Source of the DNA: Deltaproteobacteria bacterium
GTDB lineage: Bacteria; Myxococcota; Myxococcia; Myxococcales; Anaeromyxobacteraceae
Reading direction: 5' to 3'
Assembly (NCBI GenBank): GCA_016214955.1
Contig: JACRMN010000023.1
Location: forward strand, 124,001-188,000
Length of the DNA: 64,000 bases
Shown piece after piece: positions 5,609 through 62,733 of this stretch. Within the stretch, counting starts at the first letter, position 1. Every line of letters begins with the position of its first letter. Below the pieces are notes generated by a model. That model was not told the DNA's origin. It ran no database searches and saw only the letters and a list, made by a program, of their open reading frames with translations. The position numbers were made by a program, and so were the translations under genes.

Positions 5609-5670
5609 AAGCCGGGCGCCGTCGGTCCCCGGCGGTGAGGATCCCGGACCCCTTTCCGCCGGAGGACCGC

Positions 5671-7008: not shown

Positions 7009-7013
7009 TCGCC

Positions 7014-8582: not shown

Positions 8583-8619
8583 CGGAGGCGCGGGCGGCGC
8601 CCCCGCGCACGGAGGGCTC

Positions 8620-9066
8620 ATGGCGGTCTCGCCGAGCTTCGTGGAGCACGCGCTCGACCTGGTGTCGCTGGCGGCTCCGACCGAGGCGCGCCGCATGTTC
8701 GGCGGCTACGGGCTCTTCTCGCGCGGCCTGATGTACGGGCTCCTCGACGACGAGGAGCTGTTCCTCAAGACGGACGTGGAGTGCCGGCAGGCCTTCGTCG
8801 ACGCCGGCTGCCGGCAGTGGGTCTACGAGAGCCCCAGCCGAGGGGCCGTGCCCACCGGCTATTTCCGCCCACCCGACGATGCTCACGAGAGCCCGGAGGT
8901 GATGCTGCCCTGGGCCCGGCTGGCGGTGGACGCGGCGGCGCGCAAGGCGGCGGCGAAGGCGGCGAAGGGAAGAAAGCGGGCGGCGAAGGCGGGGGGCAGG
9001 GCGAAGCCGGTAGCGAAGGCGAGCGTGAAGAAGGCGCCGCGGGGGAAGGCGAAGACGCGAAGGTGA
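8620..9066 (+). CDS. TfoX N-terminal-domain protein with basic histone-like tail
   Basis: 148 residues, with GGAGG before ATG 8620. Residues 1-95 match the TfoX N-terminal domain (SPSFVEHALDLVSLAAPTEA, RRMFGGYGLFSRGLMYGLL, then LFLKTD), a fold linked to competence regulation and found in many stand-alone proteins. From about residue 105 to the end the sequence is almost only Lys, Ala, Arg and Gly (KAAAKAAKGRKRAAKAGG and onward), like histone H1 tails, suggesting nucleic-acid binding. The role is unknown; the tail makes a DNA-associated role plausible. Confidence 0.8.
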   Translation: MAVSPSFVEHALDLVSLAAPTEARRMFGGYGLFSRGLMYGLLDDEELFLKTDVECRQAFVDAGCRQWVYESPSRGAVPTGYFRPPDDAHESPEVMLPWARLAVDAAARKAAAKAAKGRKRAAKAGGRAKPVAKASVKKAPRGKAKTRR

Positions 9067-9077
9067 GTCGCCCGGGC

Positions 9078-9119
9078 GATCCCGACCCCGAACCCGACCC
9101 CGACCTCGACCGCGACCTT
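9078..9119. repeat. Hexanucleotide tract (GACCCC-like, 7 units)
   Basis: Seven consecutive six-base units, GATCCC GACCCC GAACCC / GACCCC GACCTC GACCGC / GACCTT, just after the TfoX-domain gene. On the other strand the unit is GGGGTC, the same family as the longer tract at 38,532-38,609. Confidence 0.75.
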
Positions 9120-9163
9120 CGTCGGAGCGGGTCTCGGGCCCCATCCGGTGCCCTGAACATCCG

Positions 9164-9192
9164 TTGCGTTTCCCGGGAGTGCGGGCTAGCCT
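9164..9192 (+). promoter_or_regulatory. Promoter of the GFA-family gene, leaderless type
   Basis: TTGCGT (9164-9169), 17-base spacer, TAGCCT (9187-9192). The ATG at 9199 lies at the position where transcription should begin, and no ribosome-binding site exists. Confidence 0.5.
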
Positions 9193-9198
9193 CCGGGC

Positions 9199-9564
9199 AT
9201 GTCCACCAACCCCACCACCTACCAGGGAAGCTGTCACTGTGGCGACGTCCGGTACGAGGTCACCATGGCTCCGCCCGAGAAGGCCTACGCCTGCAACTGC
9301 TCCATCTGCTCGCGCGCCGGATGGCTTCTCGCCTTCGTCCCGGTGACCTCCTTCCGGCTCCTCGCCGGGCAGGAGGCGCTCTCCGACTACCAGTTCGGCA
9401 AGAAGCACACCCACCACCTCTTCTGCCGCACCTGCGGCGTGCGCTCCTTCTCCCGCGGCTCCGATGGCAAGGGGAACGAAAGCGTGGCGGTCAACCTGCG
9501 CTGCCTGCAGGGGCTCGACGCCGCCGGCCTGCCGGTGCAGACCTTCGACGGCGCCAAGCTGTAG
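9199..9564 (+). CDS. GFA/CENP-V-domain zinc protein
   Basis: 121 residues, matching the glutathione-dependent formaldehyde-activating (GFA, CENP-V) fold. Its zinc cysteines are visible: CHCGDVRYEV near the N-terminus, CNCSICSRAG about residue 32, and FCRTCGVRSFSRG about residue 75. Members include S-hydroxymethylglutathione synthase and many proteins of unknown substrate; this short form is of the latter type. Lack of a Shine-Dalgarno and closeness of the -10 box suggest a leaderless message. Confidence 0.85.
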   Translation: MSTNPTTYQGSCHCGDVRYEVTMAPPEKAYACNCSICSRAGWLLAFVPVTSFRLLAGQEALSDYQFGKKHTHHLFCRTCGVRSFSRGSDGKGNESVAVNLRCLQGLDAAGLPVQTFDGAKL

Positions 9565-9577
9565 CCCGGGCAGGGGC

Positions 9578-10267
9578 TCAGGCCCCGCCTCCGCCGCCCG
9601 CGCCCTCCCCCGGCCTCGCGCGGCGCGGCGGGCCGAAGAGCCGGCCGCCGCGGAGCAGGCCGTCGTCGTAGCCGACCACGAAAGCGGCCCCGTCGCCCGC
9701 GGCGCGGGCCCCATCGCGCCAGGTGAGCAGCGGCTCGCAGAAGAAAGCGTTGCACATGTCGCCGCGCAGGTCGCGGGGCAGCGTGCAGCCGCGGGCGCCG
9801 TGGAAGACGCAGGAGTCGCGCACCGCGCGAGCCGGCAGGTGGGCGAGGTAGAGGGAGACCACCCCGTCGTCGGACAGGTCCGGGCGCGCCTGCCGGACGC
9901 GCCGCAGCGAGTCCACCGTCTGGTAGGCGTGGGCGCCGCCTGTCTCGCAGCAGCGGCCCCGGCAGGCCCGGCAGCCGGCCTGGAGCACCTGGTCCACCTC
10001 CGGCGGCACCGTCACCTCGGGTGGGACCTCCGGCCCCGGAGGGCGCTCCCCGGCGGCCAGGGCGCGGAGAAGGCTCCGCAGGTGCCCCTCGTAGAGCCGC
10101 CGGCGCGCCGCTGGGAGCGGGCGGGTGGGCCTGTCGCAGGCCGGGGTCACGAGCGGTGGATAGGCAGCGGGGTCGAGGCCCCGCGCCGCGGCCCGCCTCG
10201 CCCGCAGCGCCAGGATGGCCGCCTCGCGGTCGTAGGGCTCCGATGGCTCCGGTGGGTCGCGCCTCAC
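9578..10267 (-). CDS. Cysteine-cluster protein, YkgJ-like
   Basis: 229 residues. The middle has the CxxCxxxCC cluster (CRACRGRCC, about residues 99-107) followed by CVFHGARGCTLP and GDMCNAFFC. This cysteine spacing is that of the YkgJ-type putative zinc/iron-chelating domain. The N-terminal 90 residues are Arg/Pro-rich and the C-terminus is a Gly/Ala tail. Its 3' end is 13 bases from the convergent GFA gene. It lies downstream of resB in the same direction, so it may belong to that minus-strand group. Confidence 0.65.
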   Translation of the reverse strand: MRRDPPEPSEPYDREAAILALRARRAAARGLDPAAYPPLVTPACDRPTRPLPAARRRLYEGHLRSLLRALAAGERPPGPEVPPEVTVPPEVDQVLQAGCRACRGRCCETGGAHAYQTVDSLRRVRQARPDLSDDGVVSLYLAHLPARAVRDSCVFHGARGCTLPRDLRGDMCNAFFCEPLLTWRDGARAAGDGAAFVVGYDDGLLRGGRLFGPPRRARPGEGAGGGGGA

Positions 10268-10378
10268 CAGCCGATGAGAGTGCCCGGCGCCGGGCGAGTC
10301 AACAGGGGAAGCACCGGGGGAACCGGCCCCGCCGCGGCGCTGCGCCCCGCCGCGCGGCCCCCCTGGCTCGGCGCGTTT

Positions 10379-11407
10379 CTAGCTGCCACCGGGGGCGCCG
10401 TCGTCGCCCTCCGGCGCGGGAGCGGGAGCCCGGGGCAGGAAGCGGCGCCAGAGCAGCGCCACCCCGCCGAGGATGACGAGCGCCGAGAAGAAGGCCCAGG
10501 GGTTGCCCGGCGCCGAGCGGGAGCGCACCAGGATGGCGGGGCGCACCACCACGCCCTCGAGGCGCACCGGGCGGCCGTCGGCCAGCGCCGCCTCGCGCCC
10601 CTCGATCAGCCAGAGGGGCTGCGCTGCCGCGCCGGCCCGCACCACCTGCACCTGGGCCATTGCCTGCTGTCCCATTCGGCCCGCCTCGACGGCGCTCGCG
10701 ATCCGCACCTCGGCGCCGCCCAGCGTGCAGGCCGCGCCCGGCACGGCGGCGCAGCGCTCGCCGCCCAAGGAGAGCTCTGCCACCGGAGCCTGGCCCATGT
10801 CGCCGAGCAGGTGCAGCTCGGCCCCCAGGCCGCTGGAGATGGGCTGGTTGTAGCCCACCAGCACCTCCTCGACCCTGCCGGCCCCGTCGCGAAGCTCCAC
10901 CGCCGCCCGCACCTCGCGTGGCATGCCGCCGGGGAGCCGGTCCACCGCCAGCGAGCGGAGCCGCGCCTCCGGCCCGCCGGGGAGCCGCTGCCAGCTTCCC
11001 TCGGGCAGCACCGCCTCGCCCCGCTCGGCGCCCCACAGGCCGCCGACCCCGTGGGCCAGCATCGCCAGCAGGAAGGAGACGTGGAGCAGCGCCGGCGCGT
11101 AGCGGGCCGGCGCCGTCACCCCGGCCCGGATCTTCCGGGACACCGAGTGCCAGGTGGCCAGCGTGGTGTTGAGGCCGTAGAGCCCCAGCACCGGGACCAG
11201 CAGGTAGAACCAGAGGTGGGTCCAGGAGGGCGGCGCGAAGAAGCCCCGCAGGTCGTCCATGCCGATGGCGCGCGAGGCGCCGTCGCGCGTCGCCGCCAGG
11301 ACGAAGGAGCCCACTGCCAGGAGCAGCACCGTTGCGAAGCCGCAGACGAGCCCCAGCCCCTGCGAGCGCAGGAGCGCTCCCCAGTCGCGCCGCTCAGGAG
11401 AAGGCAT
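10379..11407 (-). CDS. resB: ResB-like cytochrome c biogenesis membrane protein
   Basis: 342 residues. Three N-terminal membrane segments (about 18-35, 62-80 and 103-122), a long periplasmic part (about 125-305) and a final membrane helix (WAFFSALVILGGVALLW) match the ResB/Ccs1 topology. It would work with CcsA in System II haem delivery and attachment to c-type cytochromes. Its start overlaps the end of ccsA by 14 bases, confirming the pairing. Sequence is more divergent than CcsA, as usual for ResB. Confidence 0.8.
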   Translation of the reverse strand: MPSPERRDWGALLRSQGLGLVCGFATVLLLAVGSFVLAATRDGASRAIGMDDLRGFFAPPSWTHLWFYLLVPVLGLYGLNTTLATWHSVSRKIRAGVTAPARYAPALLHVSFLLAMLAHGVGGLWGAERGEAVLPEGSWQRLPGGPEARLRSLAVDRLPGGMPREVRAAVELRDGAGRVEEVLVGYNQPISSGLGAELHLLGDMGQAPVAELSLGGERCAAVPGAACTLGGAEVRIASAVEAGRMGQQAMAQVQVVRAGAAAQPLWLIEGREAALADGRPVRLEGVVVRPAILVRSRSAPGNPWAFFSALVILGGVALLWRRFLPRAPAPAPEGDDGAPGGS

Positions 11408-12179
11408 GCGACGAGCGCCCGAAGAGGAACGAGGTGCCCACGTAGGCCACCAGCACCAGGAGCAGGCCCAGCCCGGCCAGCGCCGGCCGCAGCCAAACCT
11501 TGCCCTGCACCGAGGGGGTGAGCCTGACGTGCAGGAGGGTGGCGTAGTGGAACCAGAGGATGGCCGACCAGATGATCTTCGGGTCCCACATGAAGTAGGC
11601 GCCCCAGGCCACGACGCCCCACATGCCGCCGGTGATCATCGACACCGACCAGAGGGCGAAGCCCCACAGCGCCAGCCGGTCGATGCGGCCGATCCAGGCG
11701 GGGTCGCGGTCGCGCCACCAGGCCAGCGCCGCGGCCGCGGCCGCGGCCCAGATGGCGTAGCACACGAAGGAGAGCGGCACGTGGAGCGGGTACCAGATGG
11801 TGCGCATCAGCGGCGGCGGCCAGGAGAGGTGGAGCGGGTAGCGCAGCGCCGCCCCCATGGCCGCGAGGAGCAGCACCTGCACCGGCAGCAGGTAGAGCCG
11901 CACCGGGACCCAGACCACCGCCAGCACCAGCGCCGTCGCCAGCGCCGCGCCGGAGAAGGACTCGAGCTTGTTGGTGAGCGGAAGGAAGTCGATGGCCAGC
12001 CCACGCCCCACCGTGCCGGCGAGGTGGACCGCGGCGCCGGCCCCCAGCACCCAGCGCCCGGCCGCGGGGCGCCAGGCCGTGACCAGGAACGCCAAGAGGT
12101 ACAGGCCGCCCGCGATCCAGAGGAGCGCAGACAGGACCGGGTGGCTCGAGGCCTGGAGCGCAGGAGGAACCGGGGGCAT
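11394..12179 (-). CDS. ccsA: CcsA-type cytochrome c assembly protein
   Basis: 261 residues with about eight hydrophobic helices. The tryptophan-rich haem-handling motif is present as GGMWGVVAWGAYFMWDPK (about 184-201), with candidate haem-ligand histidines at 133 and 211. This is the CcmC/CcsA family; with the overlapping ResB gene it forms a System II haem exporter/ligase. A TonB-like gene lies 21 bases upstream on the same strand, so the three genes are probably one transcript. Confidence 0.88.
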   Translation of the reverse strand: MPPVPPALQASSHPVLSALLWIAGGLYLLAFLVTAWRPAAGRWVLGAGAAVHLAGTVGRGLAIDFLPLTNKLESFSGAALATALVLAVVWVPVRLYLLPVQVLLLAAMGAALRYPLHLSWPPPLMRTIWYPLHVPLSFVCYAIWAAAAAAALAWWRDRDPAWIGRIDRLALWGFALWSVSMITGGMWGVVAWGAYFMWDPKIIWSAILWFHYATLLHVRLTPSVQGKVWLRPALAGLGLLLVLVAYVGTSFLFGRSSHAFS

Positions 12180-18868: not shown

Positions 18869-20935
<2,067 letters not shown>

Positions 20936-20950
20936 GCCCGGGGGCCCGCC

Positions 20951-22059
20951 GTGTCGCTCAAGATCAAGCAGGATCAGGCGCGCTTCCGCGACATCGTCCG
21001 CGGGCGGATCAAGAGCAACCTGAAGAAGTACGTCCAGAAGGGCGAGCTCATCGGCAAGCAGGGGAAGGACGTGGTCACCATCCCCATCCCCTCCATCGAG
21101 GTGCCGCGCTTCCGCTTCGGCGAGAAGCAGCAGGGGGGCGTGGGCCAGGGCGAGGGCGAGCCCGGCGACCCGCTCTCGGGCAGCGACCCGCAGGAGGGCC
21201 AGGGTGGCGGCAAGGCCGGCGAGGGCGAGGGGCAGCACCTCCTGGAGGTGGACGTCTCCCTCGACGAGCTGGCCGACATCCTCGGCGAGGAGCTGGCCCT
21301 GCCCCGCATCCAGCCCAAGGGCAAGGACCGCATCGTCGCCACCCGCTTCAAGTACACCGGCGTGGCGCCGCAGGGGCCGGAGTCGCTGCGCCACTTCAAG
21401 CGCACCTACAAGCAGGCGCTGCGCCGCCAGATCGCCAGCGGCCAGTACAACTACCTGCGCCCGGTGATCGTCCCCACCCGCGAGGACCGGCGCTACCGCA
21501 CCTGGAAGGAGGTGGCGCAGCCCGAGACCAACGCGGTGGTCATCTACATGATGGACGTCTCCGGCTCCATGGGGGACGAGCAGAAGGAGATCGTGCGCAT
21601 CGAGTCCTTCTGGATCGACACCTGGCTGCGGCGCCACTACAAGGGGCTCGAGACCCGCTACGTGGTGCACGACGCCGTGGCCCGCGAGGTGGACCGGGAG
21701 ACCTTCTTCCACACCCGCGAGTCGGGCGGCACGATGATCTCGTCGGCCTACAAGCTGTGCCGCGAGCTGGTGCAGGAGAAGTACGGGTCGGGCTGGAACG
21801 TCTACCCCTTCCACTTCTCCGACGGCGACAACTGGAGCGCGGACGACACCCGGCTCTGCGTCGAGATCCTGAAGAACGACCTGTTGCCCGTGGTGAACCT
21901 CTTCGCCTACGGCCAGGTGGAGAGCCCCTACGGCTCGGGCCAGTTCGTGAAGGACCTGCGCGAGGCGGTGGGCAAGGAGGAGAACGTCGCCCTCTCGGAG
22001 ATCCCGGACAAGGACGGCATCTACGCCTCCATCCAGCAGTTCCTGGGCAAGGGGAAGTG

Positions 22060-22060
<1 letters not shown>
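20951..22060 (+). CDS. yeaH: YeaH/YhbH-family VWA-like protein (DUF444)
   Basis: 369 residues from GTG 20951. The N-terminal part has the DRxRFxxIVRGRIKxNL-type opening seen in the family ([19 protein letters not shown]), then a Gly/Glu-rich stretch (about 60-95) and a von Willebrand factor A-like domain with MIDAS motif DVSGSMGD starting at Asp202 and later [11 protein letters not shown]. Always found with PrkA and SpoVR; the three are thought to act together in stress adaptation. Its stop overlaps the spoVR start (ATGA). Confidence 0.93.
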
Positions 22061-51721: not shown

Positions 51722-51797
51722 TCCCCAGTAGCTCAGTTGGCAGAGCAGGTGACTGTTAATCACCGGGTCGCATGTTCGAGTCATGCCTGGGGAGCCA
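51722..51797 (+). tRNA. tRNA-Asn (anticodon GTT)
   Basis: A 76-base cloverleaf including the encoded CCA. Acceptor stem TCCCCAG/CTGGGGA, anticodon stem GGTGA/TCACC with loop CTGTTAA (anticodon GTT), T-arm GCATG-TTCGAGT-CATGC, discriminator G at 51794. Bases 51752-51797 are repeated at 62,645, so the 3' part is now supplied by the integrated element or the crossover point. Confidence 0.96.
51752..51797 (+). repeat. attL: left 46-bp attachment repeat
   Basis: From the anticodon loop to the terminal CCA of tRNA-Asn; identical in all 46 bases to 62,645-62,690. Sequences diverge immediately on both sides, marking the limits of the crossover region. Confidence 0.93.
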
Positions 51798-51803
51798 GTA
51801 GGG

Positions 51804-51843
51804 ACGGGGGGTTACGGGAGACCGTAGCCCCCCGTTCTCTTTT
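51804..51843 (+). terminator. Strong terminator after tRNA-Asn, inside the element
   Basis: A 14-base-pair stem (51804-51817 with 51822-51835, one G-T pair), loop GAGA, then TCTCTTTT. It lies just inside the left end and mirrors the chromosomal terminator at 62,697, so the element restores termination for the tRNA it interrupts. Confidence 0.88.
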
Positions 51844-51886: not shown

Positions 51887-52294
51887 TCAGACCTCAAGCT
51901 TGAACGTCCTGCACTCTCCTGGCGAGTTGCTGGTGTCCATCTTCGTGATCACCGAGTGGAACTGACCGCGGGCCTGAAGCATCGTCAGGATCTTGATCGC
52001 CTTCGAGCGCGTGATCCCCCTCTGCTCAAGGTCATGCTCGATGTCGTAGTACCCCTTGAACGCATCGAGCTTCGCCTTGTCCTTCCAGATCGGGTTCAAG
52101 ACCTCGATCACCCGACTGACCTCGTCCGCGGTGACGCCCTCGTGCCCGGTTAGTTCACTATCGAGAACCTCCTCGAAGCCCCTGGTCAGGCCGTAGATGG
52201 TCTCGTCACTCGGATACGACAGCCCCAACTTCTTCTCCAGCCGGTACAATTCGCCGAGCACCTTCCCGAGTGCCTTCTTGGTGTCTCCGTCCAT
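51887..52294 (-). CDS. Unknown 135-residue element protein
   Basis: 135 residues, predicted mainly helical. The C-terminal half (YYDIEHDLEQRGITRSKAIK, then ILTMLQARGQFHSVITKM) looks like a helix-turn-helix or winged-helix unit with a basic recognition helix. The N-terminus (KKALGKVLGELYRLEKKLGL) could form a coiled coil. No family recognised. It is the last of four minus-strand genes, 51 bases after the HEPN-like gene, and may share its transcript. Confidence 0.6.
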   Translation of the reverse strand: MDGDTKKALGKVLGELYRLEKKLGLSYPSDETIYGLTRGFEEVLDSELTGHEGVTADEVSRVIEVLNPIWKDKAKLDAFKGYYDIEHDLEQRGITRSKAIKILTMLQARGQFHSVITKMDTSNSPGECRTFKLEV

Positions 52295-52345
52295 GCCGTG
52301 CTCCTCCGTGAACTGGTGTCGACAGCAAACCTGCAGTCGATGGAA

Positions 52346-53155
52346 TCACTTCCGACGCGTCTTAGCTGCGGGTCGGACCGGGTCTATGGGTGACTCCCCG
52401 TTCTCCCGCAGTTGGTCGGCACGCAGTATTCCGCGGGCAGTGATCACGACACGGTCACCCCTTGCGTCGTATTCGATGAGAAGTTCGTCCGCGAGCTTCT
52501 GCAGCACCTGGGGCCTGAAGTTCATCTTGTACTTGACCCACTCACTCAGTGTCTTGGCGTCCGTCCAGCCAGAGAGCCCGTCCAGGAGAAGAAGTGTGCG
52601 ATCGGCTGCCGACAAGCGTGGGTCAAGAACCCGACGAATTCCATCGAACTCCCAAATGAGAGGGTGCTTCCGCTCGATTAAGGCGTCCACCGCCGCTTGA
52701 GCCTCTTGCGTGTTGACGGCATGGAACACACGCACGAGTTCGCACAGCACCCAAGTTGCAGTGCTGCGAACGAATTCCGAGTCCATCTTGTTAGCGACTA
52801 CGTCGCCTCCGACGTGACCCACGTTTCTGTTGTTGCGAATCTCGTACAGTGCCGGCAACACCCGCGGGAGGAGGATGCGAAGGGAGTAGTCACCTACCTT
52901 CTCCGTCTTCGGGCGTCTCGTGAGGTCCTGACACGCCTCCACGAACTTCTTGGGCTTGGACGGCGAAGGCGCGAACGTACCCGACAAGGCGCCGTCTAGA
53001 ATCGTATAGACGACCTCGCAAAAGCGTCCACCGTCAAGCGACGCCATCTTCCATGCACCCTTGGCGTATGCCGCCACGATGCTCCGAAACTCCTCAAGAA
53101 GTGGTAGTCGAAGACCTGCGGGGACTCCGGAAAGCAGCGTGTTCGGATCGACCAT
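52346..53155 (-). CDS. Putative abortive-infection-type protein with RNx6H (HEPN-like) motif
   Basis: 269 residues from ATG 53155 (a TTG just before is possible). The segment LLPRVLPALYEIRNNRNVGH, then VGGDV, has Arg107-Asn108 and His114: the R-x4-6-H spacing of HEPN RNases, in the 'RNxxxxGHxG' style of Abi C-terminal domains. The C-terminal third (TDAKTLSEWVKYKMNFRPQV, then VVITARG) reads as a winged helix. I infer a toxin-like or RNase effector; this rests on motif shape only. Upstream neighbours are 25 bases away and have winged-helix-like ends. Confidence 0.6.
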   Translation of the reverse strand: MVDPNTLLSGVPAGLRLPLLEEFRSIVAAYAKGAWKMASLDGGRFCEVVYTILDGALSGTFAPSPSKPKKFVEACQDLTRRPKTEKVGDYSLRILLPRVLPALYEIRNNRNVGHVGGDVVANKMDSEFVRSTATWVLCELVRVFHAVNTQEAQAAVDALIERKHPLIWEFDGIRRVLDPRLSAADRTLLLLDGLSGWTDAKTLSEWVKYKMNFRPQVLQKLADELLIEYDARGDRVVITARGILRADQLRENGESPIDPVRPAAKTRRK

Positions 53156-53180
53156 CAACTCTGCCTGCCCCTTTCTCGAT

Positions 53181-53594
53181 TCACCAATTGGAGTACTCCC
53201 ACGACCCGTCGACCTTGCGCCTGCGCAGCTTCTTGTCCCGACATAGGGTCACAAGGGTCGGACTGAGAGTCGTGCGTGGCATGTGGTGCCCCGCCGCCTC
53301 AAGGGCCTCCATGACTGCCTTGAACTGCTTCGGCTTCTTGAAGAAGTCAGACGAGATGAGCTCTTCGACGTACGACTTCGGTCCAACTCGCCGCCGAGTG
53401 GTAGTCGTCTTCCGTCGTTCCGAGGCTCCCTTGCGGTGCCCCCTCGGGCCCTGAGGCGCCACGCCCCCCGAGCCTAGCAGGCTCTCCAATACCTTCTCGA
53501 ACCCTGCCTTTCGCAACTCGGGGTCCTTCAGGGAGGAGACAGCCGCCTCAGCCTGCGCCACCGCTTGCTTGAGATACTCGCTGCTAGTGGTCAC
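53181..53594 (-). CDS. Small winged-helix-like element protein
   Basis: 137 residues. The N-terminus is a short helix (SSEYLKQAVAQAEAAVSSLK), then a basic Arg/Lys/Thr linker (KGASERRKTTTTRRRV), and a C-terminal compact domain (SYVEELISSDFFKKPKQFKA, VMEALEAAGHHMPRTTLSPT, ending RRKVDGSWEYSNW) with the helix-helix-wing pattern of DNA-binding proteins. The gene overlaps the previous one by four bases (53591-53594), so the products are made together. Function unknown. Confidence 0.62.
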   Translation of the reverse strand: MTTSSEYLKQAVAQAEAAVSSLKDPELRKAGFEKVLESLLGSGGVAPQGPRGHRKGASERRKTTTTRRRVGPKSYVEELISSDFFKKPKQFKAVMEALEAAGHHMPRTTLSPTLVTLCRDKKLRRRKVDGSWEYSNW

Positions 53595-54079
53595 CCGTCT
53601 TCTCCTACTCCGGCCATCTGGCCCTTTACCCAGGCTTCACCGGACTGCGTCACCACCATCGTGCCCGCCTCCTTGGCGTCCATTAGGAAGCCTTGCTGCT
53701 TTGCCGATCTCACTGCCTCAGCGGGATTCGCATGCTTGTATTTCACCTTCCGAAAGGCGTCGATAACATCACGGGTCCGAAATCCGTTCGCCATTCCTCC
53801 ATGCCGTTCAAGGAAGTCGCCGACTGCGACGACGTACTGGGTCCCACTCTTTGGAGCGAGTGAGCGGACATACTCCACAATAGACTTCTGCTTTCCGCCA
53901 GCCTTGAGGGGGTTCGCAGGCTCCGGGGCCACAACGCGACGTGGTTCGGGCACCACTCTTGCCGGGCCGAACGACGCGATCAGAGCCTTGAACTTCGCCT
54001 CCGTGTACTCCTTGTCCGAAGAGTCGACCTCAACCTCGACACCGGCGAACTGCACTCGAATGCGGTAGTGGCTCATCAT
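53591..54079 (-). CDS. Element protein with N-terminal beta strand unit and winged-helix-like end
   Basis: 162 residues; first ATG at 54079, a second at 54076 fits GAGGG spacing equally well. The start SHYRIRVQFAGVEVEVDSSD suggests a small beta-sheet module, followed by a Pro-rich linker, then SIVEYVRSLAPKSGTQYVVA and TRDVIDAFRKVKYKHANPAE with VVTQSGEAWV, a winged-helix pattern. First gene of the cassette. Unknown family; the fused beta-module plus winged helix, coupled to two similar-ended proteins, suggests a multiprotein DNA- or RNA-sensing complex. Confidence 0.62.
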   Translation of the reverse strand: MMSHYRIRVQFAGVEVEVDSSDKEYTEAKFKALIASFGPARVVPEPRRVVAPEPANPLKAGGKQKSIVEYVRSLAPKSGTQYVVAVGDFLERHGGMANGFRTRDVIDAFRKVKYKHANPAEAVRSAKQQGFLMDAKEAGTMVVTQSGEAWVKGQMAGVGEDG

Positions 54080-54164: not shown

Positions 54165-54626
54165 CTACGTCGCAGGCGTCACCAGCGACTTCCTCCACAG
54201 CTGGTACTGCGTCCTGGCGGTGTAGAACGCCACCCCCCGACGGACGCACTCGTTCACGATTTCCTTGCGGGTGACGGCCGTGTTCGCCGCCTTCATTTCG
54301 TCGGCGATGGCCCAGACCGCCTTGGTGGGCTTCTCGATGGTTGACTCCCGGACCCGGTCAGCCGTGGGCTCCGTGACCACAGGGGGCACCTCGATAGCGG
54401 CCGGAGGCTCGGCCAAAGCAGGCGCCTGGGCTTCGGGAGTCGACCCCTGCTCGTCCGCCGGCCCCGAACTCTCCTCGGTGGCCACAGGGGACTCGCCCTT
54501 CGCCACGTACCTCCAACTGCTCTTGCCGCCCTTCTGCCAGACCTTGATGACGTCAAACGCGTCGTCAGCCAGACCAGCGTTCCGTGCAGCGCGAATCGCC
54601 GAGGACCGCAACTCATAGGTCTTCAT
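54165..54626 (-). CDS. Element protein, unknown (KTYELRSSAIRAARNAG type)
   Basis: 153 residues from ATG 54626, chosen because CCGGAGGGAGCAC precedes it; an open frame extends upstream to 54725 without support. N-terminal 45 residues (MKTYELRSSAIRAARNAGLA, then WRYVAKGE) form a small alpha/beta unit seen in plasmid and integrative-element proteins; the middle is Glu/Pro/Ala-rich; the C-terminus (TRKEIVNECVRRGVAFYTAR) looks like a helical DNA-binding unit. Function unknown. Confidence 0.6.
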   Translation of the reverse strand: MKTYELRSSAIRAARNAGLADDAFDVIKVWQKGGKSSWRYVAKGESPVATEESSGPADEQGSTPEAQAPALAEPPAAIEVPPVVTEPTADRVRESTIEKPTKAVWAIADEMKAANTAVTRKEIVNECVRRGVAFYTARTQYQLWRKSLVTPAT

Positions 54627-54747
54627 GTGCTCCCTCCGGTTCGGTTCGGAGGTCCGTTCCCCCGAAACCATGACCGGAGTGTCACGCCTCACGCGTCCTC
54701 TGGCTCCTCCTCTCGTAGTGAACAAGAGGGGCTGACGAGGTGGGCGT

Positions 54748-55018
54748 CAGGTAGGCGTTGGGTGGGCACCGGTGATTTCGGTGATTCCACCTATGACCAC
54801 ACCACGTTGGCAAGTGATTGGGTTGGCAGGTAGGTGGAAGGTACCTGGTAGGTAGAGACACCAGGAGAAGAGAGTAGCTGTGACAACGCCGCCCCCTCCC
54901 CCCACCTACCCAACCTACCTAACCTACTCTATTAGTAACACCACGTCTTCCTTGGGGGACTGTCTCTTCTGGCTGGGTGGGCACTCTCGGTGGTTGGTCA
55001 TCCTCTCTCCCTACCTAG
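54748..55018. repeat. GGTAGGT iteron-like repeat cluster
   Basis: Forward copies: CAGGTAGG (54748), CAGGTAGGT (54827), TGGTAGGTAG (54846). Reverse copies: three tandem nine-base units ACCTACCCA ACCTACCTA / ACCTACTCT starting 54904, 54913 and 54922, and CCTACCTAG (55010). The exact nine-base phasing of the tandem set is typical of protein-binding iterons. Confidence 0.65.
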
Positions 55019-55397
55019 TCACTTTTGCTGGCGCCGGAGTCGAGGCAGTCACGGAAGGTGGAGGGATGTCGGGCTCACAGGCTCGCAACATCTCCCGTCC
55101 TAGCGCCCTCACCCCCAGCCCGAAGATCGGCCCCACTGTGGCCATCGAGACCAGCCTGAGTCGCGCGTGGTCGCCGAGTCTCCCCCGGTGTCACCCCTGG
55201 CCTGAGGTCCGACGTCCAAGTCACCGTAGGCCGTGTGCTTTCTCAAGCTGACCCGGTGACTCAACGTCACCGAGTCGCCGCGACGACCGGGGTGGGGGGT
55301 GCACCCCTCTTTCAGCGGGGGGCCCCGCCGCGTGCGTCACCGCGCTCATTCTTTGGTGTCGCCTGGCCTTCGTGCCCGTGATCCCTGCTGCCCCGGC

Positions 55398-55428
55398 TTC
55401 ACAAAGCTTCAAGCCGGGCTCGTATTTT
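55398..55428 (+). promoter_or_regulatory. Possible promoter of the DUF5681 operon
   Basis: TTCACA (55398-55403), 19-base spacer, TATTTT (55423-55428). It overlaps the CCCGGCTT/AAGCCGGG dyad, which with the following TATTTT could alternatively act as an attenuator or terminator hairpin. Confidence 0.35.
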
Positions 55429-55460
55429 CGGTGTGAGGGTGTTGGGTAGGAGCCGTACTT

Positions 55461-56075
55461 ATGGCCGACCTTCCTCGCCCGTGGGAGCCCACACCGAAGA
55501 CCCCGCCGCCAGCGGAGCCGTCGGAGACTGTGGAGAAGGTCGGCTCGGATGGCCGGAAGGTCATCCTGGACGCCAAGACTGGTCGGTTCGTCAAAGGCAA
55601 CCCCGGGAGACCGAAGGGCTCCAAGAACAAGGCCACCATCGCCGTCGAGAACATGATGGAAGGCGAGGCCGAGACCATCACCCGGAAGTGCATCGACCTG
55701 GCACTGGGCGGGGACACGGTCGCCATCAAGTTGGTCCTCGACCGTGTGGCCCCCGTTCGAAAGGGTCGAGCGCTCCAGGGATTGGCACGGCGAGAGGGCG
55801 AGCACTCGGTCGAGACGCTGCTGCGCGCCGTCCTCGAGGGCGACATCACGCCTGAGGAGGGCAAGGACGTCATCACCATCATCGAGGGCGCCGCCCAAGC
55901 GGCGGCAGCCAGGGCTCTAGCCACAATGCGCCAACAGCAACTGGATGCGTTCAACCGAATGAGTGAGTCCGGTCTCGGCCGGAACGTGATGTTGGTGCCC
56001 GTCACCACCCAAGACGATTGGGCAGACCTGGCCGCAACTCAGCAGCGTCAACTCAAGGCGAAAGTGAAGGAGTGA
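55461..56075 (+). CDS. DUF5681-domain protein (small-terminase-like)
   Basis: 204 residues, ATG after GTAGGAGCCG. The N-terminal third is Pro-rich, then the DUF5681 signature GRFVKGNPGRPKGSKNKATI followed by a helical stretch (MEGEAETITRKCIDLALGGD, then RVAPVRKGR). The C-terminal part is helical. DUF5681 proteins are found in phages and mobile elements, often just before the large terminase, and may be DNA-recognition (small terminase-like) subunits. No large terminase follows here. First gene of a three-gene operon. Confidence 0.75.
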   Translation: MADLPRPWEPTPKTPPPAEPSETVEKVGSDGRKVILDAKTGRFVKGNPGRPKGSKNKATIAVENMMEGEAETITRKCIDLALGGDTVAIKLVLDRVAPVRKGRALQGLARREGEHSVETLLRAVLEGDITPEEGKDVITIIEGAAQAAAARALATMRQQQLDAFNRMSESGLGRNVMLVPVTTQDDWADLAATQQRQLKAKVKE

Positions 56076-56077
56076 TC

Positions 56078-56767
56078 ATGAAGTACCTCGTTGGCAGCCC
56101 ACAGGCGACCGACTTCCTCGATCAGACCCACATCCCGAGCGGCCTCAACGTCATGCTCGGAGACCCCGACAACTGCGACCCAATGGTCGCCCCTGAGATG
56201 CGGTTGGCGCACATCGCCCTTCGTGACGGGGCTACCAAGATCGCCGCCCTGGTCGCAGACCCCACGCGCCCAACCGATGTGGAGAAGCACGTCGCCGCAC
56301 GCAAGGTGGCCAACGCAGTCATCGACCGTCTGGAGAAGACGAAGAAGGTCATCCTGGAGAGGGCCGACTACGTCCTCGACGAGGCGACGCGGCAGGCCGA
56401 CCTTGCGCTCGGCCCCAAGAGTGACCGCGGGAGCCTGCATTCAGAGATCCGCCAGTGGTTGCGCGAGACGAGTCGCCTGCCGGATGGTCTTGAGAAGATC
56501 CGGAGTGCTCTGGAAGCCGGCGGTGACGACCTGGCCGCCGTCCTATGGCACTCGCCCACGTTCCTGACGGGCCTGCCACCCGACCTTCACGAGACCCTTC
56601 GGTTCGAAGCGCTGCAGCGGGCCAAACCCGACACCTGTGCCGCCTTCTCCAGCTCAGTGGGGCTGAGAAGGCTGGCTGACCGCTACGACGGAGCCATTCG
56701 TCGCACCACGATCTACTTCTACAACCCGACGGTCGCCGAGAAGGCCGCGAAGCGAGTCGAGGTATGA
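56078..56767 (+). CDS. Unknown element protein in the DUF5681 operon
   Basis: 229 residues; AAGGAG six bases before ATG 56078, two bases after the DUF5681 stop. Mainly helical; long helix 55-100 with VEKHVAARKVANAVIDRLEK; C-terminal half has HETLRFEALQRAKPDTCAAF and IYFYNPTVAEKAAKRVEV. No motif recognised. Its stop overlaps the next start (ATGA). Tight coupling suggests it acts with the DUF5681 protein, perhaps as a packaging or DNA-handling partner; this is inference. Confidence 0.68.
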   Translation: MKYLVGSPQATDFLDQTHIPSGLNVMLGDPDNCDPMVAPEMRLAHIALRDGATKIAALVADPTRPTDVEKHVAARKVANAVIDRLEKTKKVILERADYVLDEATRQADLALGPKSDRGSLHSEIRQWLRETSRLPDGLEKIRSALEAGGDDLAAVLWHSPTFLTGLPPDLHETLRFEALQRAKPDTCAAFSSSVGLRRLADRYDGAIRRTTIYFYNPTVAEKAAKRVEV

Positions 56768-57237
56768 GCCGTGCCCAGGACCGACTCGCGCCACTCGTGG
56801 AGTGGGTCACAGCTTCCTCTGCGAGCGAGATGGCTCCTCTGGGCAAGGACGTCATCCATCGTGGCCCTTACGCGGTGTTCGTACCGCAGAATCTGAACCT
56901 TGCCCCGACGCCCAACTTCGCCGCCGGCCACCTGCCCCTGTGGCTACCGGCTGAGCAGGCGGTTCCGAGTACTCCCACGTTCACCCAGCCAGCCCCCGAG
57001 AACCAGGACCACGTCGCGATGCGGCTTCGGCACATCCACTGGATGTTCACCGAGGGCCGATTCGAAGGTGCTCTCCTCGCCCTGACCGACCCCGATGAGA
57101 GCCTAGGTTCTGCCCTCGACCGACAGTTGCCTGGTCTCGACCTTTCCGAGTTCCCCGCCCTGTTCCTCCCGGTCTGGCGCCTGGACGCAGAGCACCGCAC
57201 CTGGCTCGAGGGCCACCTACCTCTCCTTCGCCAGTAG
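56764..57237 (+). CDS. Unknown element protein, third gene of the DUF5681 operon
   Basis: 157 residues, start overlapping the previous stop. Contains a Pro/Leu-rich middle (NLAPTPNFAAGHLPLWLPAE) and a C-terminal acidic/Leu-rich segment. No known domain. Its last 14 bases, including the stop codon, form one arm of a perfect inverted repeat with 57,287-57,300. Confidence 0.62.
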   Translation: MSRAQDRLAPLVEWVTASSASEMAPLGKDVIHRGPYAVFVPQNLNLAPTPNFAAGHLPLWLPAEQAVPSTPTFTQPAPENQDHVAMRLRHIHWMFTEGRFEGALLALTDPDESLGSALDRQLPGLDLSEFPALFLPVWRLDAEHRTWLEGHLPLLRQ

Positions 57238-57300
57238 GGCGCCCACCGGTACCCCTTCCCAGTACCCTACCCCCGTCCTAGACGCGCTACTGGCGAAGGA
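57224..57300. repeat. 14-bp perfect inverted repeat between convergent genes
   Basis: TCCTTCGCCAGTAG (57224-57237) and its exact complement CTACTGGCGAAGGA (57287-57300) with a 49-base loop. The left arm ends on the stop codon of the third DUF5681-operon gene; the right arm lies before the 3' end of the convergent gene. Confidence 0.75.
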
Positions 57301-57322
57301 TTTCGCGGTGTGGGGTGGTGAA

Positions 57323-58018
57323 TCAACAGGTGGGCCCGGTACCACCCGCTCGAAGTTGCCGCTCAGCCTCGGCCAGAACTCTCTTCGATTCGCCATGCTG
57401 CACGATGGCGATCTCGTGAGCCAGGACGAGCAGGTCGGCGGTGATGACAGGATGCTCGTGGTCCAGACTCATGGCTAGGTAGACCGCTGTGTTCGAGAGC
57501 CTGCGGGCTCTTCTGCCCGCAGTGTGGGGCGTGTTCTCCCGGAACCACTGGCGGACGAGATCCCTCAAATAGGTGTAGCCGGTCTCGCACATCCTGACGA
57601 CTCGGCACCCGCGGATGTGCCTGATGTCGCGGAGTCGTGACACGAGGTCCTGTGGCGGTGCGGTCGGGGCAACGCGTTCTGATGCGCGCAACCCATTGGG
57701 GAGGCAGAGCACGGGGTTGCTGTCGCTCCGCCGTATCGCCTCGAACCCCGGCTCGACTGCAAGCACGAGTCGAGCGACCGCCGCGTCTACCGGCAGGACG
57801 AGCTCCCGTGTGGCTACCGCTCGGTATGCCTGGTCTACAGGCGGCCAGAGCTCGTCCGCTTGGTTGTACCAGATTGGACGAGGCGCCCGTATCAGGGCCT
57901 TCCCGTCCACGGCCCAGCCCACCACCGTCAGTGCCCCCCAGGTCGCCAGCCCAGAATCCGCGCCCGGCTGGCGCTGAAGGTGGTCGTGCAGTCCGCCGAC
58001 CAGTCCAGGGAGTTCCAT
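57323..58018 (-). CDS. Unknown element protein downstream of the DUF3987-like gene
   Basis: 231 residues, four bases after the stop of the replication-ATPase gene, same direction, so co-transcribed. Has TWGALTVVGWAVDGKALIRA near the start and a helical C-terminal half with MCETGYTYLRDLVRQWFREN and AVYLAMSLDHEHPVITADLL. No recognised domain. Position suggests an accessory to replication. Confidence 0.6.
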   Translation of the reverse strand: MELPGLVGGLHDHLQRQPGADSGLATWGALTVVGWAVDGKALIRAPRPIWYNQADELWPPVDQAYRAVATRELVLPVDAAVARLVLAVEPGFEAIRRSDSNPVLCLPNGLRASERVAPTAPPQDLVSRLRDIRHIRGCRVVRMCETGYTYLRDLVRQWFRENTPHTAGRRARRLSNTAVYLAMSLDHEHPVITADLLVLAHEIAIVQHGESKRVLAEAERQLRAGGTGPTC

Positions 58019-58022
58019 TGCC

Positions 58023-59447
58023 TCACCTCCAGTTCTGACCGAGTGAATAGACTTCGGCCCGCGTCCTGAACTCTTGCCATGCCTGTTGCTTCGGGAGCAG
58101 CACCAGCACCTCGCTCTTCGTGAGGTTGCTCAGTGTCACCGCGAGCAGGTGTTGCTTGGCCTTGAAGGGCTGAACGTCGGCCGCAACGAGGCGCCGGTAG
58201 AAGTAGGCGAAGGGGACGGCAGGTGCGGCCCACATGGACCGCGGCACGCCGTACTTCTTGCGCTCCTCGGGCCCCATCCTGAGGAACTCAAGCACCTTCT
58301 TCCTCACCTGCGCCTCGGCCTTCGTCGCGTCACTTCCGCCCGTCTCGCCGTCCTCAAACTTCCGAAGGATGGTGCCTACGCTCCGCCTCACGAAGGCGAC
58401 GGCCCACGTAGCATCGGCCACGGTCACCATCGGACTGCGGTGGTTTGTTCCGACGGCGAGCAGGGTCGCAAGCTTAAGGGCGTGCAGGTGGGCCCGGTTC
58501 CAGACCATGCGCAACGCCTCGTTGCTCTTCGCCGCGTTGATGGTCGCGTCGACCTCAACGTCGAATGCATCAAGCAGAGCCTCCGCGTCGGGATTGAGTG
58601 GCACCTGAACGAACTCGCCCTTGCTCTGCATGGCTAGCGCTGCCGCCGACAACTCGGCCAGACGGGCGACAAGGGGCTCCGGCGGTGGCACCCCCGCCTG
58701 CTTGTTCCGTGGCCTTCGCTCCCCCACGTATTCGCAGACAAGGAGGCGCGGGACCAGTCCGGTGGCGATGTGCGTGAGGTCGAGACACTCGAAGAAGACC
58801 GCCGGCGTCGACTCCCCAATGATGGTGACACACGGAGATTGAACCGCAGCGGTTGACCGCTGTTCGTCGGAGTAGGCGTAGACCCCCTTTACCCCGTTCT
58901 TGCCGCTCAAGGAGTAGAGCTCGTGGAGTGCTTGGTTGAGGGCCATATCTGCAGGACTGGCGTTTGGCTGCAGTATCCTCTGGAGCCGCAACCCGAACTC
59001 ACCCTGGATCGAGTAGAAGCACGGCTGCCGGGCAACCGCCTTCATGAGGGCCTGCCCCGAGGCGAATGCGGTTGGACCAACGAACATGTCCACGAGCGGG
59101 ACGGTTTTTCTAACCGCGCTGGTCAGCTTGCCGATACCGCGAGTCCCGTCCTCCTTACCGACGCCAGTCGGCGCCAGTAGGACGAGGTAGAGGTTCAGAC
59201 CAGAGGCCTCGCCGGCTGTGTTCCATTGCCGCCCCGCTATGCCTGCCACCAGGCCCAGCGCAGCGACCAAGGACACCTCCGCTACCGGCCGGATGGAACT
59301 CGCGTGGATGTAGTCTGCGAGGTCGCCGACGAGACCTGGCGGCCGTGAGGCTGGCAGGATGGGTTGTGTGGCCACGCCTTCCCGGGGCACGCCGTTGTTG
59401 CCGTCTGGGCGCGGGTCGGATCGCCAGAGCGCAGGGAAGTTGGACAT
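58023..59447 (-). CDS. DUF3987-like replication ATPase/helicase
   Basis: 474 residues. A P-loop is present as APTGVGKED (Lys98), with Glu replacing the usual Ser/Thr, as in DUF3987-type proteins of plasmids and islands. Then FYSIQGEFGLRLQRIL, CVTIIGESTPAVFFECLDLT (Walker B-like region with sensor), TGLVPRLLVCEYVGERR and a helical C-terminal domain. Probable role: primase-associated or DnaB-like helicase starting replication of the element. It sits 11 bases after the AlpA-type regulator, the arrangement known from satellite islands. Confidence 0.75.
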   Translation of the reverse strand: MSNFPALWRSDPRPDGNNGVPREGVATQPILPASRPPGLVGDLADYIHASSIRPVAEVSLVAALGLVAGIAGRQWNTAGEASGLNLYLVLLAPTGVGKEDGTRGIGKLTSAVRKTVPLVDMFVGPTAFASGQALMKAVARQPCFYSIQGEFGLRLQRILQPNASPADMALNQALHELYSLSGKNGVKGVYAYSDEQRSTAAVQSPCVTIIGESTPAVFFECLDLTHIATGLVPRLLVCEYVGERRPRNKQAGVPPPEPLVARLAELSAAALAMQSKGEFVQVPLNPDAEALLDAFDVEVDATINAAKSNEALRMVWNRAHLHALKLATLLAVGTNHRSPMVTVADATWAVAFVRRSVGTILRKFEDGETGGSDATKAEAQVRKKVLEFLRMGPEERKKYGVPRSMWAAPAVPFAYFYRRLVAADVQPFKAKQHLLAVTLSNLTKSEVLVLLPKQQAWQEFRTRAEVYSLGQNWR

Positions 59448-59458
59448 TCCCAGCCCGC

Positions 59459-59653
59459 CTACTCAGACGCCGACGTCCGTCTTCGCTCCGCCACCCACTT
59501 CTCCACTTCCTCACGCGACCAACAGACGACGTGCGAGCTGTATGCGGTGCCTCTTGGGAAGTGACCCTGGCGGATCCATCGGTAGAGAGTCGCTGGGGCG
59601 ATCCTGAGGATTGAGCAGAGGTCTGCAGCGCGCAGTGATGTCGCTTCGGGCAT
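59459..59653 (-). CDS. AlpA-type helix-turn-helix regulator / excisionase
   Basis: 64 residues, start after CGGAGCC. The MerR-like HTH is clear: LRAADLCSILRIAPATLYRW, then IRQGHFPRG and VCWSREEVEKWVAERR, the pattern of AlpA and phage excisionases. In P4-like elements and satellites AlpA switches on integrase-linked or replication genes. It heads the operon with the DUF3987-like ATPase; two TACGTT direct repeats overlap its promoter. Confidence 0.88.
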   Translation of the reverse strand: MPEATSLRAADLCSILRIAPATLYRWIRQGHFPRGTAYSSHVVCWSREEVEKWVAERRRTSASE

Positions 59654-59927: not shown

Positions 59928-60518
59928 CTATTTCATGACAGGATCGCTCTTCAGCTTCCTGTCACGATCGCCGCAAAGCATGCGCCGCGAGGCCTTGATC
60001 TCCTTGTTGATCGCCTCGAATACGGTGCTGCCTTTCGGGGCGGCCTCTACTTCGGCACCACACAGGATGCTGCCCCAGGCGAGTTCGTGAGCGGTCGGCT
60101 CCCGATCCAGGTGGTGGCGGAGCAGTCTCAGTACCCTCCGCCGGAACGCGAGGTGCTCCTTAGTCGGGATGGATTCCACAATGTCGACGATGTCCTGCAA
60201 GGGGCGACCGGCGGGACCCTCGACAGCCTCAATCACTTCCCGAGCCTTGGGTAGCCAGGTCTTCAGGCAATGGGGAAGCTTGGCGAGATGGTCGTAGACC
60301 ACCCTGTACTCGACCTCGTCCTTGTCTTCGTCCTGGCTCCGGAGAATGGACAGCCAGGGCGGACGACCATCACCGGGGTCATCCCATTCCTTCAAGGCAG
60401 CATCCCGAGCCGCCCGCGTCAGTTCTGCTCCCTTCAGCCGCTGGCCTCTCATGCTCGCGAGGCTACGCAGACCACTCCGCGCGGGGAAGAGGTTTGAAGA
60501 TGCTGCCCATGCGTTCAC
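59928..60518 (-). CDS. Unknown element protein
   Basis: 196 residues from GTG 60518; ATG 60452 would remove 22 residues and is a good alternative. Charged, helical sequence (YRVVYDHLAKLPHCLKTWLP, EHLAFRRRVLRLLRHHLDRE), with AHELAWGSILCGAEVEA near the end. No family recognised. Separated from the exported-protein gene by 25 bases in the same direction. Confidence 0.5.
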   Translation of the reverse strand: MNAWAASSNLFPARSGLRSLASMRGQRLKGAELTRAARDAALKEWDDPGDGRPPWLSILRSQDEDKDEVEYRVVYDHLAKLPHCLKTWLPKAREVIEAVEGPAGRPLQDIVDIVESIPTKEHLAFRRRVLRLLRHHLDREPTAHELAWGSILCGAEVEAAPKGSTVFEAINKEIKASRRMLCGDRDRKLKSDPVMK

Positions 60519-61246: not shown

Positions 61247-62452
61247 TCACACCGCAGCTGCCTCTTGGACGACCTGGATGCCCGTGGTCAACTTCGCCAC
61301 GTGAGCAGCCCACCTCTGAACGGCATCCATCGCTTCGTCGTCGTACGAGTGCCAGTTGTAGACGACCGAGGTGACGTCGGTAGCTCTGGCCACATGGCCG
61401 AGCACCCGCTTAATGACCTCGGTCCGATAGCCGAGGCGAGCAAGACCGCTGGCTACAGTCCGGCGAAGGTCGTGGACTCGCCACGGCGCGACCGGCTCCT
61501 CAAGTGCCTCGGACATCAGCCGGTCCGCCTTCTCCTTGGCCTTGTTCCACCCTGAGATTGGGGATTTCCCGTTCGTGGAGAAGACGAACTGACAGAGCTT
61601 CGGCTGGGCATCGACGATGGCCTTGGCCGTAGCCGAGAGCGGGGCGCGGAAGTCCCGCCCGTTCTTCATCCTGGACGCGGGCATGGCCGCCCAATCGCCG
61701 TCGATCTCCTCCCACTTGAGGAAGGACGCCTCGTCGCGACGAACGCCCGTCAGCAGCAAGAAGCGAATGCAGGCACCAAACGCACCCCCCATGGTTCCGG
61801 TCGCCTTCCACAGGGCTGCGACCTCGCGGTCTGCCAAGATCCGGTCTCGGGGCTGGAACTTGATACGAGGCACCGTACCCACAACAGGGTTGACCTCAAC
61901 GACCTCCCGCTCGATGAGCCAGTTGAACATCTTGGAGAGGTGTGCTCGTAGCAGGTTCGCCAGGTACGGCGTGTTCTTGGACACCTCGTCCAGAAGGTCG
62001 ACCACATCCCGGCGGCGGATCTCCTTCACTGGTCGGGTTCCCCAGGCCTTGACCACCAATCGCCTCAAGATTCGCTCGGTCGCCTGCCAGGTTTTCTGAT
62101 TCTGCTTGGCGTACTTCTCGATGAAGTCCTCGACGCAGGACGACACCCCGTTCAGACGTTGCTCCCGCTCTTCGGACTTCTTCTCCTCCACTGGGTCCTC
62201 GCCCCTCTGGATGACTGCCCTTGCCTCCCTGGCACGGTCACGCGCCAGCTTGAGGGAGACTCCGGGGTACTGGCCAAGGGTCAACCTTCGGAGCGCTCCC
62301 TTGAACCGGTAGGTCAGAGACCAGCTCTTGACCCCACTCGCCGAGATACGCAGCACAAGACCAGGTACCTCGCGGTCATGGACCTCGGTTCGCCCGGACT
62401 GAGGGGGCGGTAGCTTTTCAACCGCAATTGCGGTCAGTCGCTCGGAAGACAT
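61247..62452 (-). CDS. int: Tyrosine-type site-specific integrase (P4-like)
   Basis: 401 residues. N-terminal DUF4102 arm-binding domain (PGLVLRISASGVKSWSLTYR, LTLGQYPGVSLKLARDRARE), SAM-like core-binding domain (about 105-190), and catalytic domain with all key residues: Arg238 in TGVRRDE, His327 and Arg330 in HDLRR, His353 in LGHVA, nucleophile Tyr365 in VVYNWHS. Integrates the element into tRNA-Asn. It ends 193 bases from attR and reads away from it. Catalytic set intact, so it should be active. Confidence 0.95.
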   Translation of the reverse strand: MSSERLTAIAVEKLPPPQSGRTEVHDREVPGLVLRISASGVKSWSLTYRFKGALRRLTLGQYPGVSLKLARDRAREARAVIQRGEDPVEEKKSEEREQRLNGVSSCVEDFIEKYAKQNQKTWQATERILRRLVVKAWGTRPVKEIRRRDVVDLLDEVSKNTPYLANLLRAHLSKMFNWLIEREVVEVNPVVGTVPRIKFQPRDRILADREVAALWKATGTMGGAFGACIRFLLLTGVRRDEASFLKWEEIDGDWAAMPASRMKNGRDFRAPLSATAKAIVDAQPKLCQFVFSTNGKSPISGWNKAKEKADRLMSEALEEPVAPWRVHDLRRTVASGLARLGYRTEVIKRVLGHVARATDVTSVVYNWHSYDDEAMDAVQRWAAHVAKLTTGIQVVQEAAAV

Positions 62453-62644: not shown

Positions 62645-62690
62645 ACTGTTAATCACCGGGTCGCATGTTCGAGTCATGCCTGGGGAGCCA
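62645..62690 (+). repeat. attR: right 46-bp attachment repeat
   Basis: Exact copy of 51,752-51,797 (anticodon loop to CCA of tRNA-Asn). It lacks the 5' half of the tRNA, so it is not a functional tRNA gene. Confidence 0.93.
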
Positions 62691-62696
62691 CACGGG

Positions 62697-62733
62697 ACGG
62701 GCGCTTCGGAGACGGAGCGCCCGTTCACTTTTT
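62697..62733 (+). terminator. Original chromosomal terminator of tRNA-Asn
   Basis: A 12-base-pair stem (62697-62708 with 62713-62724), loop GAGA, then TCACTTTTT, six bases after attR. It matches in layout the terminator at the left end of the element. Confidence 0.85.

Follow-up and report, generated by a model that had tools for sequence, protein, structure and literature searches.

Most of what is understood about phage satellites comes from Firmicutes, Enterobacterales and Vibrionaceae. To our knowledge, satellites of virulent phages are rare, with the phage-inducible chromosomal island-like elements (PLE) and the phage-inducible chromosomal minimalist islands (PICMI) as examples. A search of open full-text papers found no satellites described for myxobacteria. 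Here we describe an integrated element of ~10.9 kb in a 64,000-nt stretch of DNA (the window) from a Deltaproteobacteria bacterium of the Anaeromyxobacter family, a myxobacteria-like host as an earlier note made from the sequence alone had supposed. We consider it likely that this element is an integrated phage satellite, packaged via a chimeric small terminase (TerS) in the particles of a helper phage.

PICMI have a core of integrase (int), AlpA and DUF3987 genes and are satellites of virulent phages in Vibrionaceae; their AlpA triggers excision, and they are packaged as concatemers (PMC10803314). Some phage-inducible chromosomal islands (PICIs) use their own TerS (PMC6092414). In P4-like satellites, exchangeable defence cargo is known (PMC9122126).

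Structure of the element and comparison with known satellites

The element is integrated at a tRNA-Asn gene. The final 46 nt of this gene are exactly duplicated at the other end of the element, and both copies sit within a 62-nt direct repeat (51752-51813 and 62645-62706, 92% identity). The predicted excised circle is 10,893 bp. The G+C content is 0.60-0.65 in the element versus 0.70-0.78 over most of the window. Relatives in the family have the tRNA-Asn gene and lack the element at it; in Anaeromyxobacter sp. PSR-1, which carries a second copy of the element elsewhere, a homologue of the methyltransferase gene flanking the element in the window is found ~0.7 kb beyond tRNA-Asn. The interval singled out by the earlier note (55461-59653) is only the core. 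Within it, the arrangement that the note had read was confirmed with Pfam and PHROGs: AlpA stands directly before a DUF3987 ATPase (spacing 11 nt) and faces the DUF5681 operon, the AlpA-DUF3987-ORF231 and DUF5681-ORF2-ORF3 operons being convergent. The tight coupling of the DUF5681 gene to two partners also held, with a gap of 2 nt to ORF2 and an overlap of 4 nt between ORF2 and ORF3. As the note had stated, no capsid, portal, tail or large terminase (TerL) gene was found among the element open reading frames (ORFs) with PHROGs and Pfam (E<=0.001). The features are as follows.

51722-51797, plus strand: tRNA-Asn (GTT), found with ARAGORN
51752-51797, plus strand: attL, the final 46 nt of tRNA-Asn, found by direct-repeat comparison
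51887-54079, minus strand: cargo region of four ORFs (51887-52294, 52346-53158, 53181-53594, 53591-54079) with no family match
54165-54626, minus strand: 'KTYEL' protein, 153 aa, with a 50-aa C-terminal domain common to Queuovirinae-type phages
54634-54717: non-coding block, 78% over 85 nt against PSR-1
54750-55015: cluster of GGTAGG/CCTACC repeats next to the AT-rich CTCTATTAGTAA, similar in kind in PSR-1
55294-55309: 16-mer GGGGGGTGCACCCCTC upstream of the DUF5681 gene, identical and in the same place in PSR-1
55461-56075, plus strand: DUF5681 protein, putative chimeric TerS (DUF5681 at residues 40-97, C-terminal TerS tail at residues ~173-203)
56078-56767, plus strand: ORF2, 229 aa
56764-57237, plus strand: ORF3, 157 aa
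57323-58018, minus strand: ORF231, 231 aa, third gene of the AlpA/DUF3987 operon
58023-59447, minus strand: DUF3987 helicase-like protein, 474 aa (Pfam PF13148, 4.8e-12; phrog_3022, 6e-115)
59459-59653, minus strand: AlpA-type helix-turn-helix regulator/excisionase (Pfam HTH_17, 1.3e-9; Phage_AlpA, 3.6e-8)
59928-60431, minus strand: ORF of 167 aa
60544-61194, minus strand: probable secreted protein adjoining the integrase (phrog_29597), with relatives in Pasteurella and Helicobacter prophages
61247-62452, minus strand: tyrosine integrase (Arm-DNA-bind_3 and Phage_integrase, PF00589)
62645-62690, plus strand: attR, exact duplicate of the final 46 nt of tRNA-Asn, found by direct-repeat comparison

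The element contains the complete int/AlpA/DUF3987 model set of PICMI (PF00589, PF05930/PF12728 and PF13148; PMC10803314), and it resembles PICMI in having no capsid genes, a suspected virulent helper and, probably, defence cargo. However, integration at fis is the hallmark of PICMI, whereas the element and its PSR-1 counterpart are at tRNA-Asn and tRNA-Thr, and PICMI average 6.7 kb against 10.9 kb here. The element also has a TerS-like gene with ORF2 and ORF3, and terminase is unmentioned in the main text of PMC10803314. With islands of the PICI type that use their own TerS, including the Staphylococcus aureus pathogenicity islands (PMC6092414), the element shares a site-specific location, an excision regulator, a TerS homologue, the lack of structural genes and a replication module with a candidate origin. 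In terms of the general description of PICIs, the specific attachment site with its integrase is seen in the 46-nt tRNA repeat and the tyrosine integrase, and the TerS homologue of some members in the phrog_5334 tail and the TerS position of DUF5681. DUF3987 and the GGTAGG-repeat region conserved in PSR-1 may correspond to the replication gene with its adjacent conserved origin. The differences are that the replication protein is DUF3987 instead of the Pri-Rep of Gram-negative PICIs, that the TerS is a putative DUF5681/phrog_5334 chimera, that the two operons are convergent, and that no capsid-resizing gene was found in the element. P4-like satellites are also integrated at tRNA genes and have an AlpA/Vis-type regulator, a replication helicase and defence cargo, but the element has a TerS, and none of its ORFs matched psu, delta, sid or P4 alpha with Pfam and PHROG. 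Its closest likeness is to PICIs that have a TerS of their own and, for the int/AlpA/DUF3987 core, to PICMI; the general PICI description fits wherever it can be assessed. We regard it as an unnamed PICI/PICMI-like satellite type that is neither PICMI nor P4.

The DUF5681 protein, its neighbours and their phage relatives

Gene context in viruses places DUF5681 proteins in the position of TerS. The domain in the window protein (PF18932, with the motif GRPKGSKNK) scored 34.7 bits against a gathering cut-off of 27.5 (Pfam 2.7e-8). In IMG/VR contigs, the large ORF next after DUF5681 matched a TerL family in at least 18 of the 21 loci scanned, which were retrieved with a DUF5681 alignment via the PKGSKNK motif and include some near-duplicates. 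The ORF following TerL matches portal or head-tail adaptor families. The C-terminus gave a second line of evidence. In both the window and the PSR-1 protein, the final ~31 residues (GRNVMLVPVTTQDDWADLAATQQRQLKAKVK) can be aligned to the end of annotated phage TerS proteins, namely those of the Queuovirinae AQKL99 and VpKK5 and of the related queuosine-gene phages Baskent_P4_1, Bhz54 and Me-ZS1. Both element proteins hit phrog_5334, a TerS family, at its end. For the TerS of Baskent_P4_1 (8e-26), Bhz54 (1.3e-26) and AQKL99 (2.9e-32), this is the family with the best full-length match. The match of the window protein covers profile positions 98-158 of 162 (1.3e-4); the N-terminal and central region of phrog_5334 does not align with it, and DUF5681 occupies its N-terminal part. 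Furthermore, a blind tblastn search of 50,697 phage records (E<=10) with the C-terminal 65 residues gave three matches, all in the TerS slot of Queuovirinae-type sequences. A hidden Markov model (HMM) of the phage tails scored the two element proteins at 30 bits, with 14.2 as the highest score among 5,000 shuffles. In the 837 kb of DNA retrieved, it detected only TerS proteins, the elements and a small ORF of Chelatococcus caeni directly before a homologue of ORF2.

These two independent lines, gene context and sequence, support the view that the DUF5681 protein is TerS-like, as the earlier note had proposed. The note had named a DUF5681 protein unrelated to TerS as what would speak against its idea; three sequence tests (the context, the tail and the phage relatives of the other element proteins) went the opposite way. 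Because the tail matches TerS while phage DUF5681 proteins are without it, a chimera is the best reading: the element appears to encode a TerS with a DUF5681 head and a tail of the helper type. The C-terminal part of TerS binds TerL in lambda and P22 (PMC9611059), and by analogy the tail of the element protein may dock on TerL.

The strongest of the three tblastn matches is in MT135025.1, which is filed as a Straboviridae Vibrio phage of 349 kb. Its positions 248207-253302 hold a TerS/endolysin stretch in Queuovirinae gene order, and the record may be a mixed assembly. DUF5681 genes are also found on small non-mobilisable plasmids (Waddlia chondrophila pWc, a 13.3-kb Shigella flexneri plasmid and Methylorubrum pCMU02). 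All three plasmids carry ParA and a tyrosine recombinase, pWc and the S. flexneri plasmid a primase/helicase gene, and the latter also tape-measure-like and tail-fibre/baseplate-like genes. They could be satellite-plasmids or phage-plasmid relics. Viral scans with a single DUF5681 sequence and a first contig scan with DUF3987, both of which depend on short patterns, gave no matches.

The replication genes have relatives in the same phages. The closest phage DUF3987 proteins are 46-48% identical and belong to Me-ZS1, VPv64, ply2008005c (two records), Bhz54, PSASB_03 and Baskent_P4_1. The KTYEL protein, too, has these phages among its best matches, and several of them share its 50-aa C-terminal domain at 63-72% identity. 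Where annotation exists, it shows a full structural module as well as genes for queuosine synthesis. Since the relatives of DUF3987, KTYEL and the TerS tail occur in the same phages, the parts for replication and for packaging lead to a single phage group. A helper from this Queuovirinae-type group is suggested by this, though not proved. With the Queuovirinae and related virulent siphophages (AQKL99, VpKK5, Bhz54, Baskent_P4_1, Me-ZS1) the element has in common the TerS tail, the DUF3987 domain and the KTYEL C-terminal domain. In contrast to the element, these are full phages, the head of their TerS is not DUF5681, and their primase/helicase of 740 aa has an N-terminal part, whereas the element protein corresponds to the C-terminal part only (46% over residues 27-473). 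The KTYEL protein perhaps acts in origin or DNA binding.

The 0.83-kb stretch between the KTYEL and DUF5681 genes is non-coding and partly conserved in PSR-1. It contains six GGTAGG/CCTACC repeats within 400 nt, against 11 in PSR-1, and this is the densest spot of either sequence; no clustering of these repeats was seen in the Queuovirinae-type segments read. We take the cluster for a probable replication origin. The 16-mer surrounds a palindrome, GGGGTGCACCCC, which alone is expected ~0.6 times per window with one mismatch allowed. It is a candidate operator or packaging (pac) site, weak by itself.

ORF2 matched no known family, and tblastn against phages and plasmids gave no match. Its model is all-helical (predicted local distance difference test 89; predicted template modelling score, pTM, 0.81) and had no match at E<=0.001 in a viral structure library. 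Assigning a function from the fold was rejected: the best Z score after re-alignment to PDB entries was 9.9, to long-helix proteins, which is below the informative level for helical bundles. A scan of viral sequences with an ORF2 alignment, which relies on short patterns, gave no matches. In Chelatococcus caeni, a homologue 35% identical to ORF2 lies beside the ORF with the TerS tail. This locus (3792-11627) is a different integrative element, with an integrase, an AlpA-like ORF, an AAA_25 protein, the ORF2 homologue and tRNA-Ser, and the tail is there on a separate small ORF immediately before the ORF2 homologue. A relative of ORF2 in Zavarzinia had two stops in the stretch tried and was not used.

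A second copy in Anaeromyxobacter sp. PSR-1

In searches of the order and the phylum, the unusual genes of the element were found in one other genome of the family, that of PSR-1. This copy is at tRNA-Thr and is bounded by its own repeat of the 3' end of that tRNA gene. It spans two contigs and is legible from both ends. The order is tRNA-Thr, AlpA, DUF3987, ORF231 and contig end on one contig, and ORF3, ORF2, DUF5681, KTYEL, two cargo genes, integrase and the copy of the tRNA-Thr 3' end on the other. Protein identity between the window and PSR-1 is 68% for the integrase, 57% for DUF5681, 55% each for ORF2 and KTYEL, 54% for ORF3, 47% for DUF3987, 32% for AlpA and 27% for ORF231. Relative to the integrase, the core block from KTYEL to AlpA (54165-59653 in the window) has opposite orientations in the two copies. 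The cargo differs: PSR-1 has other genes, one of which is a candidate defence gene (PADLOC PDC-S32, 1.5e-60). Because the same core (27-68% protein identity) recurs in PSR-1 at another tRNA gene, the element is not a chance assembly. A core that is kept while the cargo is swapped, in two genera and at two tRNA sites, would be as expected of a mobile element.

Proposed packaging model, probable helper phage and alternative explanations

For induction, replication and packaging we infer the following course. Upon infection by a suitable phage, AlpA and the integrase would excise the element. The DUF3987 helicase would replicate it, perhaps with KTYEL at the GGTAGG-repeat origin. The chimeric TerS, with its DUF5681 head and Queuovirinae-type tail, would then recruit the TerL and portal of the helper and direct satellite concatemers into helper particles; about four element units would fill a head of ~42 kb. 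ORF2 and ORF3 may be packaging partners or interference factors, and the cargo region would hold exchangeable genes, probably defensive.

The earlier note had proposed to look for a helper prophage in the same genome, and none was found. Four TerL models were used (phrog_2, PF04466, PF03354 and PF05876). The three Pfam families had no match, and a phrog_2 match at C22:112472 was rejected as a UvrD-type helicase. As no TerL was found, a resident helper prophage is unlikely. Probably a virulent phage from outside serves as the helper, which fits the Queuovirinae link. A search with the TerL of Bhz54 against 23 genomes of the family, made without a positive control, gave no match.

Several points weigh against a packaged satellite. 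The host genome (95.6% complete) has no TerL by four families, although four models cannot exclude all, nor was a helper phage found for this host. No pac or cos site was identified, and AlpA has no BLAST similarity to the small proteins that precede phage primases. The tail match is short (~31 aa), and by the tail HMM the phage homologues of DUF5681 have no phrog_5334-type tail. The structural comparison with TerS folds that the earlier note had called for matched none in PDB, with a poor model (pTM 0.32). Only two copies are known, plus the distant ORF2/tail pair in Chelatococcus.

Three other explanations have to be weighed against these data. The chimeric TerS could be a decoy on the TerL and portal of a phage, so that the island would block the phage with little or no transfer of its own DNA. 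The same tail evidence applies here, no helper is seen, the PSR-1 copy has a candidate defence gene, and ORF2 and ORF3 could be inhibitors. However, the integrase, AlpA, the DUF3987 replication protein and the conserved repeat cluster suggest excision and replication, and the presence at two tRNA sites in two genera speaks for transfer; moreover, PICIs can be packaged and interfering at once (PMC6092414). We regard an island of interference only as unlikely. The gene set and the truncation are the same in both of the diverged copies, and their ORFs are intact; this indicates selection and not decay, and makes it quite unlikely that the element is what decay has left of a Queuovirinae-like or DUF5681-type prophage, with replication genes and terS retained. 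Such an origin would explain why DUF3987, KTYEL and the TerS tail are phage-derived and why the DUF3987 protein is without the N-terminal primase part, but the annotation of the Queuovirinae-type segments read has no integrase, and the architecture of AlpA, int and tRNA is satellite-like.

The remaining possibility is a satellite packaged through its copy of a helper cos or pac site, as EcCICFT073 is, with DUF5681 being only regulatory or replicative. DUF5681 is not limited to virions, being found also on small plasmids that have ParA and primase genes, and an identical palindrome precedes the DUF5681 gene in both copies. Yet a regulator has no obvious reason to keep a TerS tail, and DUF5681 occupies the TerS slot in phages; we consider this possibility very unlikely. 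A satellite packaged via its chimeric TerS is thus the reading we prefer. Beyond this, we lean slightly towards an undescribed satellite lineage of Myxococcota that would parasitise virulent Queuovirinae-type phages by a domain-swapped TerS, combining the TerL-docking tail of the helper with a DNA-recognition head of its own. This lineage perhaps extends to Alphaproteobacteria, as suggested by the Chelatococcus ORF2/tail pair. If this is true, the tail sequence would predict the helper of an orphan satellite and allow sequence-based matching of satellites and helpers. A TerS that joins a foreign head to a tail of the helper type would show directly how packaging is redirected while compatibility with the helper motor is retained. 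It would also give a role, as a TerS head, to DUF5681, a domain whose function is given as unknown in Pfam.

Elsewhere in the window, a stretch of lower G+C at ~18-24 kb was considered as a second island and rejected; it encodes PrkA and DUF444 proteins (18869-22060) and looks like ordinary chromosome.

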